DNA of 64,000 bases from Qipengyuania soli. Lineage in GTDB: Bacteria > Pseudomonadota > Alphaproteobacteria > Sphingomonadales > Sphingomonadaceae. How positions within the stretch are numbered: position 1 is the first letter of the stretch; each line of letters begins with the position of its first letter. The notes under the pieces were generated by a model. The model was not told where the DNA came from. It did no database searches and was given only the letters and a program-made list of their open reading frames with translations. A program made the translations under genes and the position numbers. Positions 7,923 to 62,125 of the stretch are shown here, one piece after another. Location of the stretch: assembly GCF_015529805.1 (NCBI RefSeq), contig NZ_CP064654.1, positions 1,984,001-2,048,000 on the forward strand. Direction: 5' to 3'.

Positions 7923-7970
7923 GCCGCGCGATATGGGGACCGCACGACAGGGGTCAAGCAAGGGGCGCGA

Positions 7971-8444
7971 TTACTGGCCCGGCTGGCCACCAGCGCCCGG
8001 AGCTCCGGGAGCGCCGACCGCACCGATATTGCCGAACAGGTCTTCGAGGAAGCCACGCTCGCGACCCAGGGTTGGCGTCTTGTCGCCGTCGGGCGAGATA
8101 TTCGCGACCTGTTCGATACCGGTGCGCTCAGCCGCGATGACATTGCCCGCACCGTCGAACTTCACGGCAAGCACCTGGTGCTGCTTGATCCGGGGACGGA
8201 CGAAGGGCTTGCGACCGGTTGTGCTCGACACATAGTACCACGTCGGTTCGCCGAACTGACTGGTGAAGGTCGGGCGCCCGAGAGTGCCGGTTACCGAAGC
8301 CTCGTTGTCGATGCCGGGCTGGATCGAAGCATAGAGAACGGGATCGACGACGTAGCCGCGGGTTTCGCGGATTGAACTGCAGCCGGTGGTCGCGACGCCG
8401 GCCAGCGCTATGGCCGCGATCCCGAGAATTTTCGTCCTGTTCAT
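7971..8444 (-). CDS. bamE: BamE-like outer membrane assembly lipoprotein (SmpA/OmlA)
   Basis: The 157-residue lipoprotein has a signal peptide ending in a lipobox with Cys at about residue 21 (A-T-T-G-C-S-S). It carries the SmpA/OmlA domain: G-Y-V-V-D, S-I-Q-P-G-I-D, then G-T-L-G-R-P-T-F and W-Y-Y-V-S. BamE supports the beta-barrel assembly complex that inserts outer membrane proteins. The start at 8444 was chosen to give a normal lipoprotein signal. The C-terminus ends in a short Gly/Ala/Pro-rich tail. It is divergent from the cytochrome chaperone gene. Confidence 0.88.
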   Translation of the reverse strand: MNRTKILGIAAIALAGVATTGCSSIRETRGYVVDPVLYASIQPGIDNEASVTGTLGRPTFTSQFGEPTWYYVSSTTGRKPFVRPRIKQHQVLAVKFDGAGNVIAAERTGIEQVANISPDGDKTPTLGRERGFLEDLFGNIGAVGAPGAPGAGGQPGQ

Positions 8445-8600
8445 GGGAACAGCAAGTCTCCGTTTTCCGGGCGCTTGGCCGCAGGCGGCCATCTCCCTAT
8501 ATGCTCGGGCCACGCCTTAGTCCGAAAGCGGATGTGCATGCAACGTGCCTGTGCCTCTCGCTTGGGGATCGCGGTTGAATTGCCGCTGAACGGAGAAACT

Positions 8601-45185: not shown

Positions 45186-47929
45186 GCGGTTGCTCCCTTG
45201 AGCTGAGCGGGTGTTTCAACCGGGGCTGGTGCCCGGCCGCGCTCGATGTCGTGCAGCAGGCCGCCGCGGCGGGTGTAGGCCCACCAGGTCAATGCCGCAC
45301 AGCTGGAATAGAAGATGAAGAAGCCCCACAGCGCCGCCATTGGCGAACCGGTGGCGGCAATCGCGCTACCGAAGCTCTTCGGAATGAAGAAGGCCCCGTA
45401 AGCGGCAATGGCCGAAGTGAAGCCAACGATCGCAGCGGATTCCTTCTCTGCCTGGCGAACCCGGGCCGTTGCATCGAGTTCCGGCATCAGGCGCGGGACT
45501 TCCTGGCGCATGATGTTGGGGATCATCTGGAAGGTCGATGCATTGCCAACACCGGTCATGAAGAACATGAAGATGAAAGCGCCAAGGAAGCCCCACCAGT
45601 TGGCCGCTTCGAGGAAGTACACCACCCCGAGCACGCCCAGCATCATGAGTACAAAGACCCAGAAGGTTACCCGAGCCCCGCCCCACTTGTCCGACACCCA
45701 TCCCGTCGCAGCACGGCTGAGCGCCCCCACAAGCGGCCCGAGGAAGACGAACTGCAGCACATCCACATCGGGGAACTGGTGCTTGGCGAGCAACGGCAGG
45801 CCAGCGGAGAAACCGATGAAGCTGCCGAATGTGCCGGTGTAGAGCCAGCACATCAGCCAGTTGTGCTTGCGCTGGAAGATCACCGACTGTTCGGAGAAGC
45901 TGGCTTTTGCATCGGCGATGTCATTCATCCCGAACCATGCCAGCAGCGTGGACGCCATGATGAACGGCACCCAGATGAAGCCGGCATTCTGCAGCCACAG
46001 CTGACCGCCTTCGGCAGTTTGCTGAGGCTCCCCGCCCAGCGCGCCGAACACGCTGGCGACAATCACCAACGGAACGAGGAACTGCATCACCGAAACTCCC
46101 AGGTTTCCGAGTCCGGCGTTAAGCGCGAGCGCATTGCCCTTCTGCGCCTTCGGGAAGAAGAAGCTTATGTTGGACATGGAGGAGGCGAAGTTGCCGCCAC
46201 CAAAGCCGCACAGCAGCGCCAGAGTCAGGAAGATGACATAGGGCGTATCCGGGTTCTGGACCGCATAGCCTATCCCGAATGCCGGGATCAGCAGCGACGC
46301 GGTCGACATCGTGGTCCACAGGCGCCCGCCGAATATCGGAACGACAAAGCTGTAGAAGATCCGCAAGGTCGCGCCCGAAAGGCCCGGCAATGCCGCCAGC
46401 CAAAACAGCTGATCGGTGGTGTAGTCGAAGCCTATCGAGGGCAGCTTCGCGACCACCATCGACCACACCATCCAGACCGAGAACGCCAGCAGCAGCGCCG
46501 GGATCGAGATGTAGAGATTGCGGCGAGCAATCTTCTCGCCCGTTTGCTCCCAGAAACCGGGATCCTCTGGCTTCCACTCGGTCAGCACCTTGCTGGGCGT
46601 AGCAACGGCCTGCTTTTCCTCATCGTGCAGCTCGGCCATTTCAGGGAATTCGGGAAGCGAGCGCGTATCGATGCCGCTGGCCTTCTGTTCCATCTGCCGG
46701 ATAGCGATATGCATCCATGCGAGCGCAATGCCGACCAGGGCGAACAGGACCATGAAACAGCTGGTCCAGATGCCGGTCAGGTCACTGACCGCGCCGAACA
46801 CGATCGGCAAAATAAAGCCGCCGAGCCCACCGACGAGGCCCACGAGACCGCCCACCGATCCAACGTGGCCCGGATAGTAGACCGGAATGTGCTTGTAGAC
46901 CGCCGCCTTGCCGAGCGACATGAAGAAGCCCAGCACGAATACAGTGATGACAAAAGGCACCAAGTTCATCGAGGTCGAGAACATGATGTCGCCTTCGATC
47001 CCGTGGATGACGTAATCGGTCGCGGGATAGGACAGCATGAAGAGGCAGATCAGCGAGACGCCGAAGGTGGCGTACATGATCTTGCGCGCGCCATACTTAT
47101 CCGAGAGCACGCCTCCATAGGCGCGGAACACACTGGCCGAGAGCGAGAAGGTCGCAGCGAGCATACCCGCCAGCTTCACGTCGATGCCGTAGAGTCCCAC
47201 CATGTAATTGGGCAGCCAGAGCGCGAGCGCCACGAAGGCTCCGAAGACGAAGAAGTAATAGAGCGAGAAACGCCACACCTGCTCATTACGGAGCGGTTCG
47301 AGCTGTTCGAGCAAGCCTTTTGCCTTCACCCCGCTAGTCTTGCGGGCCGCGAACTCGGGATCGTCCTTGGCAAAAAGGTAGAACAGGACGGCTACGATCG
47401 CCAAGGCTCCCGCCCAGACCTGGGCCACGCCCTGCCAGCCGATCGCCACCATAACCCACGGCGCAAGAAACTTGGTCACCGCCGCACCGACATTGCCCAT
47501 GCCGAAGAAACCGAGAGCCGAGCCCTGCTTTTCAAGCGGGTAGAACTTGGAAACATAGGCGACGCCTACGGCGAAGCCGCCACCCGCCAAGCCAAGACCC
47601 AACGCCGCCAGCAGCATCATGAGATAGCTGTCCGTGTAGGAAAGCAGGAATGTCGATGCCGCCGAGGCGAGCATGGTGATCGGGAAGACGATGCGACCAC
47701 CATATTGGTCAGTCCAGATACCGAGGAACAGGCGGGTCAACGACCCCGTCAGAATCGGGGTTCCGACTAGCAGTCCGAACTGGGTATCGCTGAGGCCCAG
47801 CTCGGCCTTGATTTCGATCCCGACGATCGCGAAGATCGTCCAGACAGCGAAGCAGATCGTGAACGCGAATGTGCTCAGTCCTAGAGCCCGATTCTGTTCG
47901 CTGCTGGTCGCGATTTCCTGTCCTGGCAT
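45182..47929 (-). CDS. narK: NarK1-NarK2 fusion, nitrate/nitrite transporter
   Basis: The 915-residue protein consists of two complete MFS transporters joined in one chain, about 24 helices. The first half (to about 420) resembles NarK1-type nitrate/proton symporters; the second half (from about 470) resembles NarK2-type nitrate/nitrite antiporters. The G-x8-G-x3-G-style nitrate signatures appear in both (G-L-A-G-G-G-F-A-V-G and L-L-C-G-F-G-G-G-N-F-A-S-S). Such fusions are known in Paracoccus. It heads the nar operon. Start 47929 matches the transporter N-terminus; the in-frame extension upstream lies in the promoter. Confidence 0.94.
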   Translation of the reverse strand: MPGQEIATSSEQNRALGLSTFAFTICFAVWTIFAIVGIEIKAELGLSDTQFGLLVGTPILTGSLTRLFLGIWTDQYGGRIVFPITMLASAASTFLLSYTDSYLMMLLAALGLGLAGGGFAVGVAYVSKFYPLEKQGSALGFFGMGNVGAAVTKFLAPWVMVAIGWQGVAQVWAGALAIVAVLFYLFAKDDPEFAARKTSGVKAKGLLEQLEPLRNEQVWRFSLYYFFVFGAFVALALWLPNYMVGLYGIDVKLAGMLAATFSLSASVFRAYGGVLSDKYGARKIMYATFGVSLICLFMLSYPATDYVIHGIEGDIMFSTSMNLVPFVITVFVLGFFMSLGKAAVYKHIPVYYPGHVGSVGGLVGLVGGLGGFILPIVFGAVSDLTGIWTSCFMVLFALVGIALAWMHIAIRQMEQKASGIDTRSLPEFPEMAELHDEEKQAVATPSKVLTEWKPEDPGFWEQTGEKIARRNLYISIPALLLAFSVWMVWSMVVAKLPSIGFDYTTDQLFWLAALPGLSGATLRIFYSFVVPIFGGRLWTTMSTASLLIPAFGIGYAVQNPDTPYVIFLTLALLCGFGGGNFASSMSNISFFFPKAQKGNALALNAGLGNLGVSVMQFLVPLVIVASVFGALGGEPQQTAEGGQLWLQNAGFIWVPFIMASTLLAWFGMNDIADAKASFSEQSVIFQRKHNWLMCWLYTGTFGSFIGFSAGLPLLAKHQFPDVDVLQFVFLGPLVGALSRAATGWVSDKWGGARVTFWVFVLMMLGVLGVVYFLEAANWWGFLGAFIFMFFMTGVGNASTFQMIPNIMRQEVPRLMPELDATARVRQAEKESAAIVGFTSAIAAYGAFFIPKSFGSAIAATGSPMAALWGFFIFYSSCAALTWWAYTRRGGLLHDIERGRAPAPVETPAQLKGATA

Positions 47930-47958
47930 GATATGGTTCCTGATCTGGTATTTCGGAC

Positions 47959-47971
47959 AGGACCTCAATTA
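47959..47971 (-). promoter_or_regulatory. Likely narK promoter -10 region
   Basis: On the minus strand T-A-A-T-T-G (47971-47966) lies where a -10 element should be if the box at 47993-48006 sits at -41.5, giving a start near 47959. The 30-base leader to the ATG would be normal. Both spacing and sequence are read directly; activity is inference. Confidence 0.5.
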
Positions 47972-48146: not shown

Positions 48147-48842
48147 ATGCGAATCGGAGAGAAGCCTGAAATCGCACGGCTTCCGCTGTTTCGGGACATG
48201 GCCGAAGCGCAGCGCGATACGATCCTTGCGGGGGCCTATCTCCAGGTATTTCCTCCCCAGCTTACGCTGTTCGAGAAAGGGCAGGATGCGGACTTCCTGC
48301 ATGTGCTTGTCGATGGGCTGGTGGAACTGTTTGTGGAGGGCGCCGGGCGCGATACGACCATGCGGATCGTGGAACCCGTCGAAAGCTTTATTCTCGCCGC
48401 CGTCGTGACCGATACACCCTATCTGATGTCGGCACGCACGCTCGCATCATCGCGCATCCTGCTCGTTCCTGCATCCGGTTTGCGCGAATCCATTCGGCAT
48501 GATGCTGCCTTGATGCAGGCGACCATGCACGAGCTCGCACATGGCTATCGCGATCTTGTCCGCGCGCTAACGGATATGAAGGTGCGACAGTCGGCCGAAC
48601 GGTTAGGCAATCACTTGCTTGAAAAATCCGCCCGGAAAGGCGGGCAGTGGGAGTTCGAGCTCAAGGGTGAAAAGCGACTGCTCGCCTCGCTGCTCGGCAT
48701 GACGCCCGAAAACCTCTCCCGTGCTTTCGGTACGCTCAGGAAACACGGCGTCTCGCTTGATGGCTCAAAGGTGAGGATCGAGGACCGCGAAAGCCTTGAG
48801 CGCTATTCCCGGCCCGATCCGGTTCCGCCTGACCTGCGCTAG
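48147..48842 (+). CDS. Crp/Fnr-type regulator without cysteines (Dnr/NnrR-like)
   Basis: The 231-residue regulator has a cyclic-nucleotide-type sensor domain, a long dimer helix and a C-terminal winged helix. The recognition helix T-P-E-N-L-S-R-A-F carries the E-x-x-S-R pattern that reads TTGA-N6-TCAA in FNR and DNR. There is no cysteine anywhere, so an FNR-type iron-sulfur cluster is impossible. A Dnr/NnrR type that senses nitric oxide through haem is the best guess. It is divergent from narK and flanked by matching boxes. ATG 48147 follows the conserved gap from its box. Confidence 0.88.
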   Translation: MRIGEKPEIARLPLFRDMAEAQRDTILAGAYLQVFPPQLTLFEKGQDADFLHVLVDGLVELFVEGAGRDTTMRIVEPVESFILAAVVTDTPYLMSARTLASSRILLVPASGLRESIRHDAALMQATMHELAHGYRDLVRALTDMKVRQSAERLGNHLLEKSARKGGQWEFELKGEKRLLASLLGMTPENLSRAFGTLRKHGVSLDGSKVRIEDRESLERYSRPDPVPPDLR

Positions 48843-50656: not shown

Positions 50657-51268
50657 GTGGAAGAGGTACCTCAACTTACACCCGATCAAGCTCTTGAACT
50701 TTTGAAAGAAGGCAATCGGCGTTTTCTCGACGATACGACTTATGAGCCGACCATGGATCGCATGCGGCGGCTCGAGCTTGCGGCGGCGCAGCGCCCCTTC
50801 GCGGCCTATCTGAGCTGCTCCGATTCGCGCGTTCCGCCAGAGCTTCTCTTTGAACGTGGGCTTGGCGAGCTTTTCATTATCCGCAACGCAGGCAACACGC
50901 TGTGCACGACGGCACTCGGTAGCCTCGAATTCGCGGTCACGAACCTCAAGGTGCCGCTCATCGTGGTGATGGGGCACGAAGCCTGCGGCGCAATCAACGC
51001 CGCGGTGTCCCTCGCGCGGGGTAAGGCCACCTTCTCAGGAAACATTTCCAAGGTTTTGCAATCGCTGCTCCCAGCCGTGCTTGAGACAGATCCCTGGGCA
51101 GATCACATCGTCGACGCCGCCGCGATCAGCAATGTCCGGCGCGTGGTCAGAGAGCTGCGAGAGGAAGCTTCACCGGCCTTACTCGCACCGCAACGCCAGG
51201 GCTCACTCAAAGTGGTCGGTGCCTTCTATCATCTCGACAGCGGGAAGGTTGATTTCCTTGAGAATTGA
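50657..51268 (+). CDS. Beta-carbonic anhydrase
   Basis: The 203-residue zinc enzyme interconverts CO2 and bicarbonate. The zinc and active-site motifs are C-S-D-S-R near residue 53 and H-E-A-C-G near 110; both cysteines and the histidine are in place. GTG 50657 is the likely start and has no strong ribosome site. It follows the CopD-like gene by 50 bases and is probably in the same transcript. It may buffer pH or supply bicarbonate. Confidence 0.9.
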   Translation: MEEVPQLTPDQALELLKEGNRRFLDDTTYEPTMDRMRRLELAAAQRPFAAYLSCSDSRVPPELLFERGLGELFIIRNAGNTLCTTALGSLEFAVTNLKVPLIVVMGHEACGAINAAVSLARGKATFSGNISKVLQSLLPAVLETDPWADHIVDAAAISNVRRVVRELREEASPALLAPQRQGSLKVVGAFYHLDSGKVDFLEN

Positions 51269-51378
51269 GACGGGATCGCATTTGTTTTGATCCGAGACAA
51301 TGACACAGATACGAGTTATTCTTTAAATTATTAGATTGGCCCATTCTGCTGTTGATTGAGTGAAGTGGGGAGTCTGCC

Positions 51379-51462
51379 ATGATGAGCAATCTAACCAGAC
51401 GCGAGGCTATGGGACCGGCGGCGGTTGGTGGCGCGGGAGCGGCGCTGGCTGGTGCGTGCTGA
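51379..51462 (+). pseudogene. Twin-arginine lipoprotein signal fragment
   Basis: The frame encodes T-R-R-E-A-M, an Ala/Gly-rich hydrophobic stretch and the lipobox L-A-G-A-C, then stops. This is a complete export signal without a mature protein. It is most likely the 5' remnant of a deleted periplasmic redox lipoprotein gene. Confidence 0.5.
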
Positions 51463-51811
51463 CCATAAACGCACACACGCGATCGCTCCACAATTACTCG
51501 ACATAGGATCACATGCATGGCGCGATGACGGGAACGCCGCTGATTGCGCTAGCTATGAACGACCTCTCCTCTCCTATCACATGAACTTCGGCACAGCAGC
51601 TATGCACATCATCGACGCGTTCATGGCAAACCTGGATTGTGAAGTGATCGACGCCCGCTATCGGGCTTCGAAGGCATAGTGACGCGGCCCAACGTCAGGG
51701 GTGAATCAGATATCCGACTGGATGCAGCCATTTGGATGCCTTGCACCAATCGCGATACTCTGGCGCTGGGCCCCAAGTAGCCCTAAGTTTTTCTGGCGCA
51801 GGAGTTCGCTT

Positions 51812-51848
51812 GCATCCATTCGAAAGTGTGGGTCTAGGTGTGGGTCTG
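51812..51848 (+). repeat. Right arm-type direct repeat (integrase-binding candidate)
   Basis: Same layout and orientation as 24381-24417: G-C-A-T-C-C, 8 free bases, then two near copies of T-G-T-G-G-G-T-C-T. It lies 61 bases inside attR. Confidence 0.6.
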
Positions 51849-51909
51849 GTTCATTTCGCGACATCTATAGTTTCTTGATATCAAGATGTTAGATCAAAAT
51901 CAGATCGGA

Positions 51910-51924
51910 CTCCGTCTCCGCCAC
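51910..51924 (+). repeat. attR: 15-bp direct repeat of the tRNA-Ser 3' end
   Basis: The 15 bases C-T-C-C-G-T-C-T-C-C-G-C-C-A-C are identical to 24268-24282. No tRNA body precedes this copy. The RibB-like stop codon starts 8 bases later, so the element abuts the sulfoquinovose operon. Confidence 0.88.
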
Positions 51925-51931
51925 TAGGCCT

Positions 51932-52531
51932 CTATGCCGCACCTTCGCTAAGTTGCGAGATGTCGCAGACCTTGAGGTTGAACTTCTCGATCAGCGGCTG
52001 GACATCGCGCAGGCGGGCCATTTCGCCGTCGTCGCGCATGATCGAGCAAATCACTCCGGCATCGCCCACCCCCGCAAGGCTGCATAGCCGCACCGAGCCT
52101 TCGGCTGCCGACATGCGCGCATCGACGCCGCCGCTGCGGGTGATGAGGGGGAATACGTGGCCGGGACTGACGAGGTCGCTGCTGGTGGCGCCCGGAGCAA
52201 CGGCTGTGCGGATCGTATGCGCCCGGTCGGCGGCGGAAATGCCGGTCGTCACGCCCTCGCGCGCCTCGATCGAATTGCCGAAGGGGCGGCCCGTCTGGCG
52301 TTCGGTAGAGGGATTGATGAGCCGGATGCCCAGCCCCATTGCGCGCTCGCTGGGCAGCGTCAGGCAGATGAGACCACGCCCATGCGTTGCCATGAAGGTA
52401 ATGTGCTCGGTCGTGACGAGGCTCGCGGCGGCGCAAAAGTCGATATCACCGCCGCGCAGCCGGTCGCCGGTGAGGATGACGATCTCGCCGCGCGCGATCG
52501 CGTCGATGGCTTCCTGAACACCGGTGCTCAT
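51932..52531 (-). CDS. RibB-like (DHBP synthase homologue) lacking catalytic residues
   Basis: The 199-residue protein is a clear homologue of 3,4-dihydroxy-2-butanone-4-phosphate synthase: M-A-T-H-G-R-G-L-I-C-L, E-G-V-T-T-G-I-S-A-A-D-R and P-G-H-V-F-P-L are kept. The acidic loop D-R-E-N-E-G-D reads D-R-L-R-G-G-D (23-29), so both glutamates are lost. The metal histidine of G-H-T-E-A is replaced by Ala142, and the glutamate after Cys162 by Ser163. It is therefore unlikely to make DHBP. It is the last gene of the sulfoquinovose operon, overlapping the FMN reductase (ATGA). A flavin-related or new role is inference. Confidence 0.85.
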   Translation of the reverse strand: MSTGVQEAIDAIARGEIVILTGDRLRGGDIDFCAAASLVTTEHITFMATHGRGLICLTLPSERAMGLGIRLINPSTERQTGRPFGNSIEAREGVTTGISAADRAHTIRTAVAPGATSSDLVSPGHVFPLITRSGGVDARMSAAEGSVRLCSLAGVGDAGVICSIMRDDGEMARLRDVQPLIEKFNLKVCDISQLSEGAA

Positions 52532-53100
52532 GCCGCGTCCACCTGGCTCCACACCGTCGCCCCGCGAAGAACCTGCTGCCCGACCAGGGTGAGTTGCAGG
52601 CGGATGCGATCGTCCAGGCACTCGCCTTCGGGCGAGAACATGCCCTCGTAAGTGCGGGCGGTCACGCCCATGGGCGTGGGCCAGCCGCGCAGGGCGTGGA
52701 TGATGTTGCGCAGCGTCAGCAGCGTTCCCATGGCCGCCTGGTCGCCATAGGCTGTGGCGATGAGGCCGACAGCGCGCCCGTCGAGATAGGGGCGACGATC
52801 CTTGGCGAGATCCTCGAGGTAATCGAGCGCGTTCTTGACGAGTCCCGACACGGTCCCGTGGTAGCCCGGCGCTGCGACCAGTATGCCGTCGGCCTGCCGG
52901 ACCGCCTCGACCAGTTCGCGCCCACTGCCTTCCTGGTAGTCCCTGCCGCGGTAGTGCGGCAGGCCCGCAAGGTAGTCGCCGCCGAACACGCTGACTTCGG
53001 CCCCCGCCTCGAGCAGGGGCTTGCAGGCATAGCGCAGCGCCATCTCGGTGGTGCTGCCGGGATTGACCGTCCCGCCGATGGCTACGATCCGAAGTGTCAT
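52528..53100 (-). CDS. NAD(P)H-dependent FMN reductase (SsuE/MsuE/SmoA-like)
   Basis: The 190-residue flavodoxin-fold reductase has the FMN loop G-G-T-V-N-P-G-S-T-T-E and A-A-P-G-Y-H-G-T-V-S-G-L-V-K-N-A-L-D-Y. It supplies free reduced FMN to two-component monooxygenases. In this operon the partner is the SsuD-like monooxygenase at 54598-55683. It overlaps glpD and the RibB-like gene by ATGA on both sides, so all three are translationally linked. Confidence 0.9.
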   Translation of the reverse strand: MTLRIVAIGGTVNPGSTTEMALRYACKPLLEAGAEVSVFGGDYLAGLPHYRGRDYQEGSGRELVEAVRQADGILVAAPGYHGTVSGLVKNALDYLEDLAKDRRPYLDGRAVGLIATAYGDQAAMGTLLTLRNIIHALRGWPTPMGVTARTYEGMFSPEGECLDDRIRLQLTLVGQQVLRGATVWSQVDAA

Positions 53101-54596
53101 GCTGCTTCCCTTTCAAGGCAGTAATTGCCGAGTGTGGCCTGCTGTCCGGGGGACAGCCTGAGGCCGAGTTTGGTTCGCCGCCAGAGGATATCCTCGGCTG
53201 TCAGGGCCCATTCGCGGGCACGCAGATAGTCGACCTCGCGCTGGGTCAGGCCATGTCCGAAATCGGTTCCACAGTCGGACATGGCGTCGGCTTCGCCGAA
53301 TATTTCGAAAGCCAGCGTTCCATAGGCCTTGGCGATGCGGCGGATCGTCATGGGGTCAAAGAACGGATATCGGCCAGCAAGCTTCGCACACAGGTCGTCT
53401 GCGCCGTCGGTCGGAAAATCGCCTCCCGGCAAAGCTTCGTGCCCGGTCCAGCCGGAACGGTCGGCGAGCGGAAGTCGCGTCCCCAGCCGGTCGACCGCCT
53501 CCTGCGCCAAGTGGCGGTAGACGGTGAGCTTGCCGCCGAAGACGTTCAGCAGCGGTGCGCCCTCGTCGACTTCGCTCAATTCCAGGCGATAGCCGCGGGT
53601 CGCCGCCTCGGGCTTGCCCGATCCGTCATCGATCAGCGGGCGCACACCGGCGTAGCTCCAAACGACATCGGCGGGGGCAATTTGCTGGCGGAAGAACCGG
53701 TTTGCGCCTTCGCAGAGATAGGCGATTTCCTCCACGCTTGCCTCGACATGGTCGAGCGGCCCCTGGTGATCTGCATCGGTCGTCCCGACGAGGGTGAAGT
53801 CATCTTCATAAGGGATGGCGAAGAAGATCCGCCCATCGGGCAGCTGGAAGAAATAGGCGAAATCGTGGTCGAACAGCTTGCGCACGACGATGTGCGAGCC
53901 ACGCACGAGCCGCATGCGATTGCTGTCCGGAACATGACCCGCTTCCAGCACGCGGAGCACACCCGGGCCACCGGCGTTGACGATTGCGCGGGCATGGAAG
54001 GTCTCGCCCCCTGCCTCGATACGCCAATTGTTGCCCTCTCGCGCAAAACCTGTGACGCGGCAGCGCGTACGGACATCGGCACCCTTGTCGGCAGCATCGC
54101 GGGCATTGAGCACCACCAGCCGCGCATCATCCGCCCAGCAGTCGGAATAGACGAAACCATTGGTGAATTCGGGCTTCAACGGGGCACCGGCGGGATGGCC
54201 GGTAAGGGCCACGGTCTGCGTAGCACGCAGTTTCTTGCGTCCGCCAATGTGGTCGTAGAGGAACAGCCCGAGCCGCAGCAGCCAGCGCGGGCGCAGGCCC
54301 TTCACGTGGGGAAGGACGAAGCGCATCGGCCAGATGATGTGCGGGGCAATCGCCCACAGCCGCTCGCGTTCGGACAGGGACTCGCGCACGAGGCCGAACT
54401 CGTAGTGCTCGAGATAGCGCAAGCCGCCGTGGATCAGCTTCGACGAGGCGGAGGACGTTCCTTGTGCGAGGTCCCCGGCTTCGAGCAGGAGGACCTTGGC
54501 GCCCCGACCGGCGGCATCGCGGCCAATGCCACAGCCGTTGATGCCGCCGCCGATGACGGCGACGTCGTAAAGGTTCGGGGCAGCGGATTCGTCCAC
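53097..54596 (-). CDS. glpD: Glycerol-3-phosphate dehydrogenase (GlpD-like)
   Basis: The 499-residue FAD flavoenzyme oxidises glycerol-3-phosphate to dihydroxyacetone phosphate and passes electrons to quinone. The dinucleotide fold is V-I-G-G-G-I-N-G-C-G-I, followed by S-S-K-L-I-H-G-G-L-R-Y-L-E and V-R-G-S-H-I-V-V. The C-terminal domain is complete. GTG 54596 starts just after the monooxygenase stop. In this operon it probably handles the glycerol of sulfoquinovosyl glycerol; the needed glycerol kinase is not in the window. Confidence 0.93.
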   Translation of the reverse strand: MDESAAPNLYDVAVIGGGINGCGIGRDAAGRGAKVLLLEAGDLAQGTSSASSKLIHGGLRYLEHYEFGLVRESLSERERLWAIAPHIIWPMRFVLPHVKGLRPRWLLRLGLFLYDHIGGRKKLRATQTVALTGHPAGAPLKPEFTNGFVYSDCWADDARLVVLNARDAADKGADVRTRCRVTGFAREGNNWRIEAGGETFHARAIVNAGGPGVLRVLEAGHVPDSNRMRLVRGSHIVVRKLFDHDFAYFFQLPDGRIFFAIPYEDDFTLVGTTDADHQGPLDHVEASVEEIAYLCEGANRFFRQQIAPADVVWSYAGVRPLIDDGSGKPEAATRGYRLELSEVDEGAPLLNVFGGKLTVYRHLAQEAVDRLGTRLPLADRSGWTGHEALPGGDFPTDGADDLCAKLAGRYPFFDPMTIRRIAKAYGTLAFEIFGEADAMSDCGTDFGHGLTQREVDYLRAREWALTAEDILWRRTKLGLRLSPGQQATLGNYCLEREAA

Positions 54597-54597
54597 G

Positions 54598-55683
54598 TCA
54601 GAACTTCAGCGGGCCATGCTCGATATGCGGCAGGACATGGCGGGCGAACAGGTCCGCCTCCGTCGTGTGCGGGTATCCGGAGAGGATGAAGGCTTCGATC
54701 CCCTCGGCCTGGTAGGCGCGAAGCTTGGCCAGGACCTGGTCGGGATTGCCGACGATCGCTGCGCCGCAACCCGATCGCGCGCGGCCGATGCCCGTCCACA
54801 AATTCTCCTCGACGAAGCCGTCGCCGTCCGCCGCGCCGCGCAGTTCCTGCTGCCGCTGGACGCCGTAGTTCTTGGCATCGAGCGACTTCTCGCGGATCGC
54901 CTTGCCGGTCTCGTCGTCGAGCTTCGAGAGCAGGCGGTCGGCATAGGCGCGCGCCTCGTCCTCGGTTTCCCGCACGATGACGTGGACACGATAGCCGAAC
55001 TTCAGCTCGCGCCCGAACTTCGCCGCGCGCTCCTTGAGGTCGGCGATGTTGGCGCGGACCTTGTCCATCGTGTCCGGCCACATCAGGTAGACGTCTGCCG
55101 CCTCGGCCGCGCATTCGCGCGCCTCGTGGCTGAGGCCGCCGAAGTAGAACGGCGGGCACTTGCCGCTGAGCGTGGAGATGCGCGCCGGGTCGAGGTCGAA
55201 CTGGTAGAACTCACCGTCGAACTTGCAGTGCTCGCCGTTGAGCAGCGTGCGGACGATCTTCATGATCTCGGTCCCGCGACGATAACGTGGACCGCTTTCC
55301 ATCGCCTGCCCAGGCATGTCGGAGGAGATGATGTTGACGTTGAGGCGCCCGCCGGTGCCATCGGCATTGGGGCCGAGGATGCGGTCGAGCGTCGCGATGC
55401 GGCGCGCCAGCTGCGGTGGCCAGTCTTCGCCCATGCGCGTCGCCCACAGCAGTTTCATGCGGCTGAGATAGGGCGCGACCGCGGCGGCGAAGACAGTGGT
55501 GTCAACGCCGAGCTGGTAGCCCGAGGGAAGCAGGATATTGTCGAACCCGCCCTCTTCGGCCCGCAGCACGATATTGCGGCAATGCTCCCAGCTCGAGGCA
55601 AGCTGCGGATCGGGCACGCCGAGGAATTCGTAGTCGTCGTCGCACAGCGCGGAAAACCACGCGATTTCGCACTGTTGGGTCAT
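54598..55683 (-). CDS. Sulfoquinovose monooxygenase candidate (SsuD/SmoC-like LLM enzyme)
   Basis: The 361-residue bacterial luciferase-like enzyme is of the alkanesulfonate monooxygenase group. It shows G-F-D-N-I-L-L-P-S-G-Y near residue 55, A-T-L-D-R-I, G-G-R-L-N-V-N-I-I-S and Y-F-G-G-L-S-H-E-A-R, as in SsuD and SmoC. These enzymes use FMNH2 and O2 to split the C-S bond and release sulfite. The neighbouring sulfoquinovosidase makes sulfoquinovose the likely substrate, giving 6-oxo-glucose. It overlaps the aldo-keto reductase stop (ATGA). Substrate is inferred from context. Confidence 0.85.
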   Translation of the reverse strand: MTQQCEIAWFSALCDDDYEFLGVPDPQLASSWEHCRNIVLRAEEGGFDNILLPSGYQLGVDTTVFAAAVAPYLSRMKLLWATRMGEDWPPQLARRIATLDRILGPNADGTGGRLNVNIISSDMPGQAMESGPRYRRGTEIMKIVRTLLNGEHCKFDGEFYQFDLDPARISTLSGKCPPFYFGGLSHEARECAAEAADVYLMWPDTMDKVRANIADLKERAAKFGRELKFGYRVHVIVRETEDEARAYADRLLSKLDDETGKAIREKSLDAKNYGVQRQQELRGAADGDGFVEENLWTGIGRARSGCGAAIVGNPDQVLAKLRAYQAEGIEAFILSGYPHTTEADLFARHVLPHIEHGPLKF

Positions 55684-56594
55684 GGTAGTCTCACTCCTCG
55701 CGCGGCGACCAGCACCGCGTACCAATCCTGTCGTGTCCAGGTCATGCCGAGCGCCTGTGCGCCCTCGGCGATCCGTTCCGCGCTCTGCGAACCGATGATC
55801 GGGACGATGCCTGCCGGATGCGCCATCAGCCAGCCATAGGCGGCGACCGAGCGACTGACGCCCTGCTCGCCCGCAATCCGGTCGAGTTCGCTTGCCACCG
55901 CCTTGTCGCGCTCGGTTTCGGGCGAGAGCAGGCGCCCCCCGCCCAGCGGCGACCATGCGAGCGGCGTCAGGCCAAGGCGCATGGCCTGGTCCAGCTCGCC
56001 GTTTTCGAAACAGTCGATCCGCAGCGGGCTAATCTCGGGCTGCGTCGCCACCAGCGGGGTGTCGAGGAAATGCGCCAACGCGTCGATCTGCGCTTGCGTG
56101 AAGTTCGACACGCCAAGCGAGCGGATCTTGCCCACCGCCAGAGCGTCTTCCAGCGTCCGCGCGACTTCCTGCGGGTGGGTCAGGATGTCCGGGCGGTGGA
56201 TCTGGTAGAGGTCGATCGTGTCGACCTTCATCCTCCGCAGCGATGCATCGATGGCACCCGACAGGTATTCCGCCGACTGGTCGTAGGGCAGCGGCGGCAT
56301 GATCCCGCCCTTGCTGGCCAGCACCATGCGGCTGCGCAAGCCGGGTTCCGCGGCGAGCACCTCGCCCAGCAAGGCTTCTGCATCGCCGAAGCCGCCACCG
56401 CCGTTAAAGCCGTAGATGTCTGCCGTATCGAGCAGCGTGATCCCTGCATCGAGCGCGGCATGGACCAGCGCGGCTGCTTCGGAGGCGGTGCGGCCGTTTT
56501 CGGCGAGACGCCACATGCCCCAGGCAAGCGGCGAAATCGCGATATCGCTGGAGCCCAGGCGGCGCGAGGCAGGCGGTGGAGGCAGTGTGGTCAT
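55680..56594 (-). CDS. Aldo-keto reductase (SmoB-like, 6-oxo-glucose reductase candidate)
   Basis: The 304-residue TIM-barrel reductase has the catalytic tetrad in L-L-D-T-A-D-I-Y-G-F (Asp and Tyr), V-L-A-S-K-G-G (Lys) and L-Y-Q-I-H-R-P-D (His). The NADPH-binding end reads I-V-P-I-I-G-S-Q-S. In the sulfo-SMO pathway such an enzyme reduces 6-oxo-glucose to glucose. It is coupled by ATGA overlaps to the LacI gene before and the monooxygenase after. Confidence 0.87.
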   Translation of the reverse strand: MTTLPPPPASRRLGSSDIAISPLAWGMWRLAENGRTASEAAALVHAALDAGITLLDTADIYGFNGGGGFGDAEALLGEVLAAEPGLRSRMVLASKGGIMPPLPYDQSAEYLSGAIDASLRRMKVDTIDLYQIHRPDILTHPQEVARTLEDALAVGKIRSLGVSNFTQAQIDALAHFLDTPLVATQPEISPLRIDCFENGELDQAMRLGLTPLAWSPLGGGRLLSPETERDKAVASELDRIAGEQGVSRSVAAYGWLMAHPAGIVPIIGSQSAERIAEGAQALGMTWTRQDWYAVLVAARGVRLP

Positions 56595-57601
56595 TCGTAT
56601 CCCTTCGGCGGCGCGACGGAGGCGCGTTCGATCAATTGGTGCGGCAGGCGCTGGTGGGTGATGTCCCCACCGGTGACGAGAATTTCGGTCGCGGTGCGGG
56701 CGAGGTCGGCCATCGGCTGATGGATGGTCGTCAACGGCGGATAGACAGTGCGCGCAAGCGGCGTGTCGTCGAACCCGACCACCGACAGGTCGCGCGGCAC
56801 GTCGATGTCGCGCTCGTGCGCCACGGCCAGCACGCCTGCAGCCATGTCGTCGTTCGACGCGAAGATCGCGGTCGGCGGATTGAGCAGGTCGAGCAATTCG
56901 CCCCCTGCCCTGATGCCGCTTTCGACGTCGAACTCGCCATCGTGGACCAGGCCCGGCTCGAAAGCGATGCCCGCCCGGTCGAGCGCGCGGCGATAGCCGA
57001 ACAGGCGTTCGTCGCTGGCCATGTGGTTGGGGTGGCCCTTGATGAAGCCGATCCTGCGATGTCCCTTGTTGATCAGCAGGCTGGTCAGGTCGTCCGCCGC
57101 CTGCGCATCGTCCATGAACACCGAACTGGTCAGCGCATGGTTGGTCCCCGGCGAGATCCGCACGAAGGGTATGTTGAGCGTGTCGAGCGTCGCCAGGACC
57201 GCCTCGCAATCGGTCACGGGCGAGGACAGGATGATCCCGTCGACATGCGTTTCCATGACCAGCCCGCGCACCTGTTCCCCGACATCGGGGTCCTCGACGT
57301 CGACGGGCTGCGCAATCAGGCGGATGCCCTTTGCCTTGCACGCGTCCCAGCAGCCGGTCTGGATCTGGAACATGTAATACGGGCTGTGATTGTCGTAGAT
57401 CAGCGCGACCTGGTTCGACTTCGCGCCCGAGAGGATGCGCGCGGCGACGCTGGGGCGGAAGTCGAGTTCCTTCATCGCCCGCTCGATCTTCTCGCGGGTC
57501 TCGGCGCGGACATAGGGATGACCGTTGAGCAGGCGACTGACGGTCTTCACCGCCACCCCCGCGCGTTCGGCGACATCGCGGATGTTCGATCTCTCGCTCA
57601 T
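56591..57601 (-). CDS. LacI-family regulator of the sulfoquinovose operon
   Basis: The 336-residue repressor has an N-terminal helix-turn-helix (N-I-R-D-V-A-E-R-A-G-V-A-V-K-T-V-S-R-L-L-N-G) with the usual hinge, and a periplasmic-binding-protein-like sugar domain (V-D-G-I-I-L-S-S-P, G-H-R-R-I-G-F-I-K-G). It lies inside the operon between the sulfoquinovosidase and reductase genes. The palindrome at 59669-59687 in the divergent promoter is a fitting operator. Effector is probably sulfoquinovose or a derivative. Both ends overlap neighbours (ATGA). Confidence 0.92.
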   Translation of the reverse strand: MSERSNIRDVAERAGVAVKTVSRLLNGHPYVRAETREKIERAMKELDFRPSVAARILSGAKSNQVALIYDNHSPYYMFQIQTGCWDACKAKGIRLIAQPVDVEDPDVGEQVRGLVMETHVDGIILSSPVTDCEAVLATLDTLNIPFVRISPGTNHALTSSVFMDDAQAADDLTSLLINKGHRRIGFIKGHPNHMASDERLFGYRRALDRAGIAFEPGLVHDGEFDVESGIRAGGELLDLLNPPTAIFASNDDMAAGVLAVAHERDIDVPRDLSVVGFDDTPLARTVYPPLTTIHQPMADLARTATEILVTGGDITHQRLPHQLIERASVAPPKGYE

Positions 57602-59634
57602 TGGCTCAGCACTCCGGCAAGCCCGGCGAACAGCGGCGCATGCCGCGCTTCCGGGCGATAGAACACGGGCGGCGCACCTATCGGAGCAGCAACCGAATGC
57701 GTTCCTGGCGCGAAATCCTCGCCGCTCCAGCAATGGCGCCATGGGCCCTCGCCTGGCAGGACGACGTCGCGCCGGTCGGCACCTTCCTCGATCACGGGCG
57801 CAACCAGCAGGTCGGAGCCGTAAAGATACTGGTCCTGCACTGCAAACAGCTTGGGGTCGTCCGGATATTCGAGGAACAGCGGGCGCTGCAGGGGCAGCCC
57901 GCTGCGCGATGCCTCGCCGCACAGCTCACGCACATAGGGCGCAAGGTAGGCATGGACTCGGCTCCAGCGCGCGAAACAATCGAGCAGTCCGGGCGAGCTG
58001 TCATACTGAAGGTTGTCGTCGGGCCGGTTGCCCTCGTGACTGCGCATGACCGGGGCGAAGGCAGCCAGTTCGCACCAGCGCCTGAGCAGTTCCTCGGACC
58101 TGACATTGCCATGAAGCGATGTGTAGCCGCCGCAGTCGGAATGGCTGTAGGCATTGCCCAGAAGCCCGGCGGAAAGCGCCGCGGTAATCACCGTGCCGAT
58201 CCCGTCGTGGCGAGTGAAATCGACACACTGGTCGCCTGCCCAAAGCAACGGGCAATGCGCCTGCACTCCGGAAAATCCCGCGCGCATGAAGAAGACCGCA
58301 TCGCCAGTCTTGCTGCGACTCGCGACGGCCTGCGCATTCACTTGCGCCCACAGGACCGGATAGAGATTGTGCGCCTCCATCGGGTCGGAGCCATCGGCGA
58401 GCCGCAGGTCGGTCGGCAGGTACTCGCCGAAATCGGCCATCCACCCGGCAATGCCCCGGTCGAGCATCTCGCGCCCTATGATGCGCTCGGCAAACCAGCT
58501 GCGGGTTTCCTCGCGGGTGAAATCGAGCACACCGCAGTCGAATTCGCCGAAGTCGACGAGATGAGGCTCGTCGCTGTCGAGCTTCAGGCAGAAATGCCCG
58601 CCCGCCGCCGCGTCGGCGAAGAGATCGCCATCCTCTGCGAGATAGGGGTTCACATAGGCGAGGAACTTGATGCCGCGCCTGGCCAAGTCGACAATTCTGC
58701 CCTCGAGACCGGGGAAACGCTCTTCGCTTCGCTCGCCCAGGTGCCAGTCCCAGAACAACCGGCGCCCGAAACTCGTCTGGCGGATTCCCGCCCAGTCCTC
58801 GCACCAGAGGCCCGACACGGCCGAGCCGGCGTCGATGAATTTCTCCAGCCGGTCGAAACTGCTCGCACCCGACTTGAGGCCGACGATCGCCCCCGAGATG
58901 GCCCAGTCGGGAAGAGCAGGCTGGCGACCGAAGCGGTCCGACAACAGGCCGACAAGCGCTTTGGGCCCATCGGCGCCGAAGAACTCGAACCGCGCGCTGC
59001 TGCTCCATACTTCGACGCGGTGCGTATTCGCGTCGGTGAAATCGAGCACCGAGTAACAGGTCTCTGCGCAATGAACCGCCAGCCAGCGCGAAGACAGGAA
59101 CGTCGGTTGGGGATAATTGGTGTTCCAATAGTCGCCACCCGCCATGCCCTCGGCATCCATGATGCGCGTCAGTTCGGTCGACTTGTCGCGACCGACACCG
59201 GGCTCGCTGGTCCACATCGGGAAGCGTCGACCGTTGAGGGCAAGGTAGCTCATTTGCTCCCCGCCACCCCAAACGACCTCGCCCGCTTCGGCATGGAAGT
59301 GGAGATGGATACGATCGAACGACGGATCGAGCGCATCCACCTGCAGCGCCGAACCAGCCAATGACAGGCGAACGACTTCGATCCCGTCGCTCAGCAGGAC
59401 GGCGCCGTCGCCATCGAGACTGAAGCTGTCGGGACGCACCGACTCGCGTGGAGCATCCTCGATGCGGAAATTGCCGCGATACATTTCGACGCTGGGGTTG
59501 CCCCGGGCAATGACCACCGCAGGACATGAATTTGCGTGACGCAGCAGCAATTTGCCATCGAGCCACAGCTCGAAAGCGTCCTCACTGGCGGAAAAGCGCA
59601 ATTCCACGGCTGTTTTCCCTCTCCTTGACGCCAT
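57598..59634 (-). CDS. Sulfoquinovosidase, GH31 family (YihQ/SmoI-like)
   Basis: The 678-residue glycosidase cleaves sulfoquinovose from sulfolipid headgroups. The nucleophile D401 lies in W-M-A-D-F-G-E-Y and the acid D468 in L-L-W-A-G-D-Q. The sulfonate-recognition residues known from Agrobacterium (K-E-R-W-Y set) are all found with matching spacing: K254, E279 (W-C-E-D-W), R292 and W295 (R-R-L-F-W), and Y504 (C-G-G-Y-T). Ordinary GH31 glucosidases lack this set. No signal peptide is seen. It is the first gene of the operon, divergent from the TonB receptor. Confidence 0.93.
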   Translation of the reverse strand: MASRRGKTAVELRFSASEDAFELWLDGKLLLRHANSCPAVVIARGNPSVEMYRGNFRIEDAPRESVRPDSFSLDGDGAVLLSDGIEVVRLSLAGSALQVDALDPSFDRIHLHFHAEAGEVVWGGGEQMSYLALNGRRFPMWTSEPGVGRDKSTELTRIMDAEGMAGGDYWNTNYPQPTFLSSRWLAVHCAETCYSVLDFTDANTHRVEVWSSSARFEFFGADGPKALVGLLSDRFGRQPALPDWAISGAIVGLKSGASSFDRLEKFIDAGSAVSGLWCEDWAGIRQTSFGRRLFWDWHLGERSEERFPGLEGRIVDLARRGIKFLAYVNPYLAEDGDLFADAAAGGHFCLKLDSDEPHLVDFGEFDCGVLDFTREETRSWFAERIIGREMLDRGIAGWMADFGEYLPTDLRLADGSDPMEAHNLYPVLWAQVNAQAVASRSKTGDAVFFMRAGFSGVQAHCPLLWAGDQCVDFTRHDGIGTVITAALSAGLLGNAYSHSDCGGYTSLHGNVRSEELLRRWCELAAFAPVMRSHEGNRPDDNLQYDSSPGLLDCFARWSRVHAYLAPYVRELCGEASRSGLPLQRPLFLEYPDDPKLFAVQDQYLYGSDLLVAPVIEEGADRRDVVLPGEGPWRHCWSGEDFAPGTHSVAAPIGAPPVFYRPEARHAPLFAGLAGVLSQ

Positions 59635-59687: not shown

Positions 59688-59782
59688 CGGGACAGCGATT
59701 GCCATCCCTCGGGCAATCAGGGAGGTTGGAGAGCGGCTATTTGCGCGCCGGAACTTCGCCCCCGCTTGAGAGGGAGAAGGAA

Positions 59783-62125
59783 ATGAAGGCTTTCGGCAAA
59801 AGCTCGATTCGTGCGCTCGGCTGGTCTGCCAGCGCGCTTGGCCTGATGGTCGGCAGCGCAGCTCACGCACAGGATGCAGCGGGCGAGAACGACGATTCCA
59901 GCGGCGGCGTGGACGTCATCATCGTGACCGCCCAGAAGGTGGAACAGAACGTCCAGGACGTTCCCATCGCAGTCACTGCCCTTTCGGGCGAGACTCTCGA
60001 GGCCAAGGGCGTCGACAGCATCGAGGATCTCTCGGTCGTCGCTCCCTCGGTGAGTTTCCGCAAGGGCACCACCAGCGCCAACAGCGCCATCGTCATGCGC
60101 GGCGTCGGCACGATCACTTTCTCGGTTGCTGCAGAACCGAGCGTTTCGACCGTGGTTGACGGCATCGTGCTGTCGCGTTCGGGACAGGCCTTCATGGACC
60201 TCGTCGACCTCGAACGGCTCGAAGTCCTGCGCGGTCCGCAGGGCACGCTGTTCGGCAAGAACGCCTCCGCCGGTCTCGTCAACGTCGTTTCGCGCGGCGG
60301 AACGGACAGCTTCGAAGGCGAGGTCAAGGCCGAGGCCTATGACGACAACGAGTACCGCCTGCGTGCCTCGCTAGCTGGTCCGCTCGCAACCGATCTCAGC
60401 GCCCGCGTGACCGGCTTCTACGGCACCTATGATGGGAACATCACCAACGTCTACACCGGCGGCAAGGTCAACGGGTACGAGCACTACGGTGTGCGCGGCA
60501 TTCTCGACTATTCGGGCAGCATTGCCGACGTTCGCTTCATCGCCGACTACTTCAGGGCCAATGACGACTGCTGCGCCGACGTGCGCGGCGTCAGCGGCGG
60601 TGCAGTCGTCGATGCCGAACTCAACCTGCCCGACGGTTCCGCGCAGGGCGAGGACCAACGTTACGTGAATCACAACCTCGTCACCCAGACGAAGGACAAG
60701 CAGTGGAGCCTGACGCTCAGCGGCGACATCCAGCTGTCGGACACCCACACCCTCAGCGTCGTCACCGGCTATCGCAACTGGTTCAACGAGGAAATCCGCG
60801 AAGGCGACTTCCTCCCGCGGCCACTGACGACTGCAGGCGAATTGCACGACAATGGCGTTGTCACGACCGAGCAGATGTCGTTCGAAGCACGCATCGCGTC
60901 CGATCCCACCGCACCGTTCTTCTACCAGGTCGGCGGCTTCCTGTGGCACTCGGACAACAAGCAGGACTTCACCCGCCGCGACATCACCTGCAGCACTTCC
61001 ACCCTGCCGGTCGATCCGGTGACAGGCGGTCGTCCCTGCAACCTCAATGACCCGGTCAACACGATCTACCCGACCGCGACCTCGTTCAGCGACGTCAACT
61101 CGAGCAACTACGCGCTTTTCGGCCAGGCGACCTGGAACATCACCGAACAGCTCGGCCTGACGGGCGGTCTGCGCTATACCTGGGACGACCTGTCCTACAC
61201 CCACATCCGCGCACCTGGCGTCAATGCGACCACCGGTCTCTCCGCGACCGGCCCGGGCGTCAGTGGCAACCCTGCAGGCGGAACCATTGCCGGGGGCGGC
61301 AATGGGACCAACGTGTCGCGCGGCTCGCAGAAGAACGACAATATTTCAGGTAAGGCGGTGCTCACCTTCAAGCCCACCGACGACGTGATGCTCTACGGCA
61401 GCTATACAAGGGGCTACAAGGGGCCGGCCTACAATGTGTTCTTCAACCACACGGCGCCAAACAACGCGGTGCCGATCGACGAAGAAACTTCGGATGCCTT
61501 CGAAGTCGGCCTGAAGTCGCTGTTCTGGGATCGCAAGATCCAGTTGAACCTTGCCGCTTTCACCGTCCAGTATGACGGGTTCCAGGCGAACAACTTCGTC
61601 AATCTCAACGGCACCATCATCACCAACCTGACGAATGCGGGCACAGTGAAGAGCGAAGGTTTCGAAGCTGACTTGGTCTTCGCCCCGGTCGACGGCCTGA
61701 CCTTCAACGCCAGCGCGGCCTATGCCGATGCGCGAGTGAAAGAGTTCAACCCGAACCCTGCCACGAACGCACCCGACGCACGTAACGGTACACAGCTGCC
61801 GCTGGCGCCGAAGTTCAGCTACACGCTGGGAGCCGATTACGAGGCCGACTTCGGCGGGTTCATCGGCTATTTCGGCACCAACTACCGACACATGAGCAAG
61901 CAGTATTCCGACCTCGGCGAACAGGGTCCGATCGACGCTTATGGCCTGCTCAACGCCTCGATCGGGTTCTCAGATCCTGAAGACCGCTATCGCATCACTT
62001 TCCACGCGCGGAACCTGCTCGACGACAGCTACGTGCTGCTCAACGTCGGCAATGGCTCTCGCCTGCAGATCCCGCGTGATGCAGATCGCTACTTCGGTGT
62101 GACCGCCCGCGTCCGCTTCGACTAG
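59783..62125 (+). CDS. TonB-dependent receptor
   Basis: The 780-residue outer membrane receptor has a signal peptide ending H-A-Q, a TonB-box-like start (D-V-I-I-V-T-A-Q-K), a plug with V-L-R-G-P-Q-G-T-L-F-G-K-N and a 22-strand barrel ending R-V-R-F-D. It imports large or scarce nutrients; from context sulfoquinovosyl glycerol or a related glycoside. A-G-G-G-A-G-A-A-G-G-A-A lies just ahead of ATG 59783. It is divergent from the operon and followed by a terminator. Confidence 0.93.
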   Translation: MKAFGKSSIRALGWSASALGLMVGSAAHAQDAAGENDDSSGGVDVIIVTAQKVEQNVQDVPIAVTALSGETLEAKGVDSIEDLSVVAPSVSFRKGTTSANSAIVMRGVGTITFSVAAEPSVSTVVDGIVLSRSGQAFMDLVDLERLEVLRGPQGTLFGKNASAGLVNVVSRGGTDSFEGEVKAEAYDDNEYRLRASLAGPLATDLSARVTGFYGTYDGNITNVYTGGKVNGYEHYGVRGILDYSGSIADVRFIADYFRANDDCCADVRGVSGGAVVDAELNLPDGSAQGEDQRYVNHNLVTQTKDKQWSLTLSGDIQLSDTHTLSVVTGYRNWFNEEIREGDFLPRPLTTAGELHDNGVVTTEQMSFEARIASDPTAPFFYQVGGFLWHSDNKQDFTRRDITCSTSTLPVDPVTGGRPCNLNDPVNTIYPTATSFSDVNSSNYALFGQATWNITEQLGLTGGLRYTWDDLSYTHIRAPGVNATTGLSATGPGVSGNPAGGTIAGGGNGTNVSRGSQKNDNISGKAVLTFKPTDDVMLYGSYTRGYKGPAYNVFFNHTAPNNAVPIDEETSDAFEVGLKSLFWDRKIQLNLAAFTVQYDGFQANNFVNLNGTIITNLTNAGTVKSEGFEADLVFAPVDGLTFNASAAYADARVKEFNPNPATNAPDARNGTQLPLAPKFSYTLGADYEADFGGFIGYFGTNYRHMSKQYSDLGEQGPIDAYGLLNASIGFSDPEDRYRITFHARNLLDDSYVLLNVGNGSRLQIPRDADRYFGVTARVRFD

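Follow-up and report, generated by a model that had tools for sequence, protein, structure and literature searches.

How reduced flavin is passed from separate reductases to monooxygenases without waste on oxygen is a long-standing question. In the sulfo-SMO and sulfo-ASMO operons, as reviewed, the monooxygenase SquD works with an SsuE-type reductase and with SquF (PMC9594981; PMC12890257), N. aromaticivorans being listed without SsuE (PMC9594981). An inactive paralogue from the riboflavin pathway has been described in another flavin monooxygenase system, that of luciferase, as the lumazine protein of Photobacterium (PMC8272222). RibB, the DHBP synthase, is described as having an active site to which one subunit contributes loops 1-3 and its partner loops 4-5; in the Vibrio cholerae enzyme Arg-38 touches the substrate phosphate, and the E39A, E41A and H154A variants are said to lose activity (PMC5228156). 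A DHBPS domain that has lost activity together with essential residues is found in plant RIBA3, as reported from enzyme assay and complementation in Escherichia coli (PMC3509567). Here we describe a RibB homologue without several of these residues at the end of a bacterial operon of the sulfo-SMO type.

The window, which is the whole stretch of 64,000 nucleotides of Qipengyuania soli that was analysed, carries a tightly packed minus-strand operon whose final gene (51932..52531, -; 199 aa) encodes the RibB variant that we name RibBv. Upstream of it, and all on the minus strand, lie the genes for a 190-aa FMN reductase (52528..53100; PF03358), the glycerol-3-phosphate dehydrogenase GlpD (53097..54596; above its NCBIfam cut-off), an LLM-family monooxygenase of the SquD/SmoC type, likely a sulfoquinovose monooxygenase (54598..55647, with a putative start codon), an adjacent aldo-keto reductase of the SquF/SmoB type, likely a 6-dehydroglucose reductase (55680..56594), a LacI-family regulator (56591..57598) and a YihQ-like GH31 glycosidase (57598..59634). 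A divergent TonB-dependent receptor on the plus strand (59699..62125) may serve sulfosugar uptake, and similar receptors recur beside other RibBv loci. The GH31 protein scores 855.4 bits against NCBIfam NF007746 (PRK10426, alpha-glucosidase; cut-off 553), and its best PDB matches, 5ohy and 5ohs, are named yihQ, the lower-ranked 5aed being named sulfoquinovosidase. The best PDB matches of the LLM monooxygenase (7olf and 7oh2) and of the aldo-keto reductase (7bbz) are entries under other names which we take to be SmoC and SmoB, respectively, of the sulfo-SMO pathway. The FMN reductase falls below the NCBIfam cut-offs for SsuE (30.9 of 164.05 bits) and MsuE (32.2 of 212.5 bits). This gene content points to an operon of the sulfo-SMO/ASMO type that would act on sulfoquinovose, a plant sulfosugar, and the claim of the earlier note that RibBv closes a desulfonation operon stands. 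The GH31 glycosidase, SquD-like monooxygenase, SquF-like reductase, flavin reductase and regulator are common to this locus and the described operons, whereas RibBv and GlpD are additions (PMC9594981; PMC12890257). In the parts consulted the two reviews name no RibB-like protein, the word riboflavin is absent from both main texts, and in the open-licence literature searched we found, as the earlier note had supposed, no described role for such a protein in a sulfoquinovose operon.

The RibBv gene runs from an ATG at 52531 to a TAG stop at 51934-51932 and shares an ATGA overlap with the FMN reductase gene, to which the earlier note had described it as translationally coupled. A terminator scan of 51200-53200 returned one site, on the plus strand, which is no more than in shuffled sequences. 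RibBv matches Pfam DHBP_synthase (PF00926) with 202.5 bits over residues 6-195 (cut-off 26.4), and in phmmer it aligns with E. coli RibB (1g57) free of gaps over the aligned stretch. Its model, made from a 20-row alignment (pLDDT 89.1, weakest at residues 76-79 in loop 2), matches 6mnz with Z 30.6 and an rmsd of 1.7 over 195 residues at 43% identity, and 3ls6 with Z 30.3 and an rmsd of 1.8 at 37% identity; the Pfam match and these full-length structure matches at Z ~30 agree with the earlier description of a RibB homologue whose fold is kept. Below RibB the matches are GdmN/HypF/YrdC-type chains at Z ~7 (VIA-align), which would be at most distant relatives of the fold, and no flavin carrier is among the structure matches of the model.

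With the alignment to 1g57, E. coli RibB numbers are those of the window protein plus 11, and V. cholerae numbers are those of E. coli plus 1. In RibBv E38 is replaced by G27, E40 by D29 (a conservative change), H153 by A142 and T154 by A143, and E174, which we count among the metal or acid-base residues of RibB, corresponds to S163, the residue after Cys162. This confirms what had been noted from the letters alone, namely that neither glutamate of the loop is left, nor the histidine of the metal site, nor the glutamate that follows Cys162. R37, D42, H136, R150 and E155 are retained, and with them the equivalents of V. cholerae Arg-38 and Asp-43. The former metal loop, RibBv residues 22-31 (52439..52468, -), reads GDRLRGGDID against DDEDRENEGD in E. 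coli RibB, and loop 2 contains a new invariant Arg82-Pro83 (codons at 52283..52288, -). The same residue pattern is present in the 22 readable copies of RibBv, save for a glutamate at position 27 in one; this position is variable (G in 15, R in 5, D in 1 and E in 1). Its variability, the Arg82-Pro83 pair and the altered charge of the site go beyond what the earlier note had described. Among distinct non-variant RibB rows E38 and E174 are present in 108/108 and E40 in 107/108, the remaining row being an alignment shift. A pattern common to 22 copies, set against 108 rows that all keep E38 and E174, goes beyond chance, and a sequencing artefact or a single pseudogene was rejected as its source.

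These residues bear directly on whether RibBv might still be a DHBP synthase with unusual residues that boosts flavin supply. The fold and many RibB motifs are kept, and normal rib genes are reported to adjoin the lux operon in Photobacterium (PMC8272222). Moreover, glutamine stands in place of the metal histidine in 45/108 non-variant rows, so that loss of the histidine alone is not decisive, and we rejected it as proof of inactivity. Against this reading, E38 and E174 are lost and E40 has become aspartate. RibBv also misses NCBIfam TIGR00506 (ribB; cut-off 177.45), with 161.9 bits for the window protein and 168.4 bits for that of Novosphingobium sp. SG707 (L114), whereas three normal controls pass it (L001, 238.6; L195, 244.1; L128, 245.8 bits), L001 being the normal RibB domain that the source genome has elsewhere. 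An active extra RibB was rejected on these grounds, and we consider it the most improbable of the explanations weighed here. The evidence supports a RibB homologue for which DHBP production is unlikely: judged by sequence, RibBv keeps the RibB fold and fails membership as a DHBP synthase by its residues as well as by the curated cut-off. It has the full-length fold and the dimer-donated loops in common with RibB and differs from it in the missing metal and acid-base residues, the Arg82-Pro83 pair, the charge reversal of the metal loop and the TIGR00506 miss. With the DHBPS domain of RIBA3 it shares the lack of essential residues; the plant domain differs in being fused to an active GTP cyclohydrolase II, and its description states no link to a monooxygenase in the parts consulted (PMC3509567).

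The manner in which the site has changed was assessed by comparing the 22 readable RibBv copies with 107 normal domains pre-filtered on R37, E38 and E174; the result holds with the unfiltered set of 108 rows (L196 added and three identical rows merged), and the normal rows were gathered by RibBv-query searches and are not a random sample of RibB. One copy with a disrupted frame (L040) was excluded from the alignment, tree, conservation and dN/dS analyses. Invariant in RibBv are glycine for D33, glycine for N39, aspartate for E40, arginine for T93 and a new proline at 94; G41 is always replaced by I, M, V or L and D36 by L, F or Y, and R37, D42, H136 and R150 are kept in 22/22. The acidic metal loop has become basic and partly hydrophobic, the phosphate loop (loop 2) has gained its invariant Arg-Pro, and the summed charge of 11 site positions is higher by 4 to 7 in every copy. 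The pocket volume changes by a mean of -77 cubic angstrom (range -126 to +10), and a roomier pocket was rejected as an argument for flavin, the change being small and inconsistent. A quick tree of 130 rows, drawn with a midpoint root, places all 22 RibBv together on the same side of a branch whose SH-aLRT is 100.

Taking as normally invariant the residues at least 95% conserved in the 108 unfiltered rows, RibBv keeps 5/13 in the own-side loops 1-3, 8/8 in the dimer-donated loops 4-5, 3/5 of the further site residues and 26/36 in the rest of the protein (own-side against donated loops, p 0.007; own-side against rest, p 0.045); with the filtered set the own-side loops keep 5/14 (p 0.0055). Conservation in the donated loops is no higher than in the rest (p 0.17), and the signal in these alignments is one of own-side loss, the donated loops having no special protection. 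This comparison touches on the idea that RibBv is a prozyme which forms a heterodimer with normal RibB and adjusts flavin synthesis to what the monooxygenase requires. RibB sites are reported to be built from both subunits (PMC5228156), the partner-donated residues are the ones kept in full and a normal RibB domain is present in the same genome; but the p value of 0.17 gives the donated loops no distinction, a homodimer would need them too, and it is on RibBv's own side that the new invariant residues are found. We regard such a prozyme as distinctly unlikely.

A relic that decays while hitch-hiking in the operon is, in our estimate, very unlikely. In its favour, 1/23 copies is frame-disrupted, the evolution of RibBv outpaces that of SquD (mean distances of 0.344 and 0.137, respectively, over 16 copies) and some pairs reach a dN/dS of 0.5, the sixth and seventh lowest-dS pairs giving 0.50 and 0.46. 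However, 22/23 copies are readable, dN/dS is 0.04-0.08 in the five lowest-dS pairs and the new invariant motif is clade-wide. Median dN/dS over the 178 pairs with dS < 1.6 is 0.29 for RibBv, 0.25 for the reductase and 0.11 for SquD, dS being near saturation across these pairs so that only the closest are informative. That the changes in RibBv look like retooling rather than decay is well supported. The word dead, which the earlier note had applied to the enzyme, may overstate the case, as new invariant residues make the site look re-specified; binding or a different reaction would thus be possible.

A match to RibBv at E <= 1e-50 was found in 21/248 genomes of the same family (source included; 20/247 others), and 20 of these family copies are readable with the motif. 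The other (L040, ~7941-8525, genome G223) has its frame disrupted near the start, which may reflect a sequencing error or a young pseudogene. Two named records, Novosphingobium sp. SG707 (L114) and a plasmid of N. humi (L194), bring the total to 23 loci, 22 of them readable; the readable copies fall into a single clade marked by an invariant motif peculiar to it. The former was the one new RibBv among the 80 loci listed by a contig pattern scan, whose patterns are shared with normal RibB, and the latter is the first hit (H1) among the best 40 of 300 plasmid records in a tblastn search, in which H2 has an identity equal to that of H1 and H3 and H13 are normal. A sample of 385 genomes of the class, with the source and at least four others of its family included, gave a RibB match at E <= 1e-46 in 63, or 62 besides the source. 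No RibBv was recognised in other alphaproteobacterial families among the 29 of these 62 matches whose residues were checked, all of which have E38 and E174 (one, L199, with glutamine for the metal histidine); the other 33 score at most 163.1 bits, compared with 174.7 for the weakest RibBv match in the family. RibBv is narrow in lineage and belongs to some members of one family which, to judge by the named relatives, is the Sphingomonadaceae. The earlier note would have been refuted by absence of the variant from all other sulfonate operons; this did not happen, as 20 more family genomes and the two Novosphingobium records have it.

Within this lineage the FMN reductase gene lies directly upstream of RibBv in 23/23 loci, with a 4-base overlap in 16/20 family loci (starts having been chosen by script nearest the reductase stop), and the pair is intact where GlpD is missing (L027, L041). 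Pairwise distances of RibBv correlate with those of the reductase at r 0.935 (22 copies), of GlpD at 0.885 (20) and of SquD at 0.755 (16), and those of the reductase with GlpD at 0.899 (20) and with SquD at 0.747 (16), the values being drawn from different locus sets; such linkage speaks for joint inheritance and is no evidence of contact. SquD (E <= 1e-100) is present in 63/248 family genomes, and all 21 genomes with RibBv are among them. It lies inside the examined stretch in 15/20 family RibBv loci, on the same contig within ~12 kb in four of the other five, and on a separate contig in the fifth, whose assembly is fragmented; the L114 and L194 stretches end too early to show whether SquD follows.

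SquD occurs without RibBv in 42 of its 63 family genomes. The 40 SquD loci surveyed in these genomes (those of G159 and G022 set aside) lack RibBv, and an FMN reductase of this type is present in just two of them (L102, L103), where it is more distant; three loci (G231, G206, G190) were read to the SquD edge and several contigs end near SquD, the far sides being covered by the genome-wide search. RibBv is therefore not needed for the chemistry. In two SquD operons (L074, L075) GlpD is present and the FMN reductase and RibBv are both absent, neither being found elsewhere in these genomes at the limits used, so that reductase and RibBv seem to be gained or lost together. Twelve SquD loci from other families, out of 20 matches of which the remaining 8 are at 51-53% identity, have neither reductase nor RibBv. 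These patterns weigh on the possibility that RibBv has become a catalyst, either a new enzyme that needs no metal or one of mutarotase-like action, for a sugar phosphate or sugar sulfonate of the pathway, with sulfoquinovose, 6-dehydroglucose or the glycerol 3-phosphate side as candidate substrates. R37, D42, H136 and R150 are still part of the pocket, the phosphate loop has acquired Arg82, sulfonates are similar to phosphates and the operon is of the sulfosugar type; yet RibBv follows the operon's FMN reductase and not SquD and SquF alone, as the 42 genomes attest, and the old acid/base residues are gone with no clear new ones visible. A catalytic role of this kind is possible, if somewhat unlikely.

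An FMN reductase of this kind (E <= 1e-30) occurs in 77/248 family genomes and is common without RibBv. In the 24 genomes whose reductases score highest, RibBv accompanies SquD: both are present in 21 and both are absent from 3, an association of 1 in 2024 by simple counting, with kinship uncorrected and the cut set afterwards. Just below this cut, G200 has a reductase with 59% identity and 209 bits, SquD on another contig and no RibBv. The three SquD-less genomes, whose reductases are 68-73% identical to that of the operon, have no RibBv: G105 (L288) and G126 (L290) contain GlpD with the reductase, and G127 (L289) the reductase alone. An unlikely reading, in our view, is that RibBv serves the FMN reductase as a subunit, scaffold or metabolite sensor and transfers no flavin. 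The constant place behind the reductase gene, with the overlap, would suit this, and sequence fails to separate such a subunit from a protein that transfers flavin; but the 3 close reductases without SquD have no RibBv, which hints that its role involves SquD.

The reading that we tentatively put first, while holding it at rather less than an even chance, is that RibBv is a repurposed RibB paralogue which acts as a metal-free flavin-binding partner of the FMN reductase and SquD. The protein would have left riboflavin synthesis and joined the sulfo-SMO operon, where, as a homodimer whose former active site is now a pocket free of metal, it may bind FMN or a related phosphate or sulfonate ligand. 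The ribityl-phosphate tail of FMN resembles the old substrate, ribulose 5-phosphate, and could be read by the old pocket; RibBv might then help to hold, pass on or meter flavin on its way from the FMN reductase to the SquD monooxygenase. FMN is the first candidate ligand because the presence of RibBv follows that of SquD and the operon's FMN reductase combined, and FMN binding is put forward by analogy. The cationic site, with the kept phosphate arginine, the new arginine of loop 2 and hydrophobic neighbours, would suit an anionic ligand bound without Mg, and, of the three roles offered in the earlier note (FMN binding, sensing or a new sugar reaction), the co-occurrence with the reductase favours one with flavin without deciding the matter. 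RibBv would in this work like the lumazine protein, an inactive riboflavin-synthase paralogue serving bacterial luciferase. The two differ in that the lumazine protein is derived from riboflavin synthase, has a known ligand and plays an optical role, whereas RibBv comes from RibB and its ligand is putative. The stronger proposal, that RibBv represents a second, independent case of a riboflavin-pathway enzyme turned non-catalytic flavin partner of an FMNH2-dependent monooxygenase, as a RibB-derived FMN carrier or coupling subunit that improves hand-over, is more doubtful still.

A conserved third protein beside a reductase/monooxygenase pair offers a testable candidate for flavin hand-over, and so consistent a repurposing of RibB within a two-component monooxygenase operon is likely to surprise specialists. 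With RibBv the pathway for a very abundant organosulfur compound gains a component still to be characterised, and ribB-like genes in these operons are not to be counted as riboflavin synthesis genes.

Several further observations were made on the sequences surveyed. The non-variant RibB rows with glutamine for His153 (L115-L187, e.g. L115, L118 and L127) keep E38 and E174; many come from Deltaproteobacteria and Nitrospirota, and they constitute an active-site variant of RibB. Beside the sulfo-SMO locus of Novosphingobium sp. SG707 (L114, 5467-7925) are genes for an MFS transporter and a PF03601 membrane protein, the latter family presumably being that of YeiH, a possible sulfite exporter. Open reading frames similar by eye lie in L038 (3412-5924), L078 (16772-19062) and L103 (12741-13781), the families having been tested in L114. 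In the window itself, a gene for the alpha subunit of a respiratory nitrate reductase (41448-45185) adjoins one for a 928-residue MFS protein (45182-47968) with three matched MFS stretches, which looks like two fused nitrate/nitrite transporters, and a Crp/Fnr-type regulator is encoded nearby (48147-48842).
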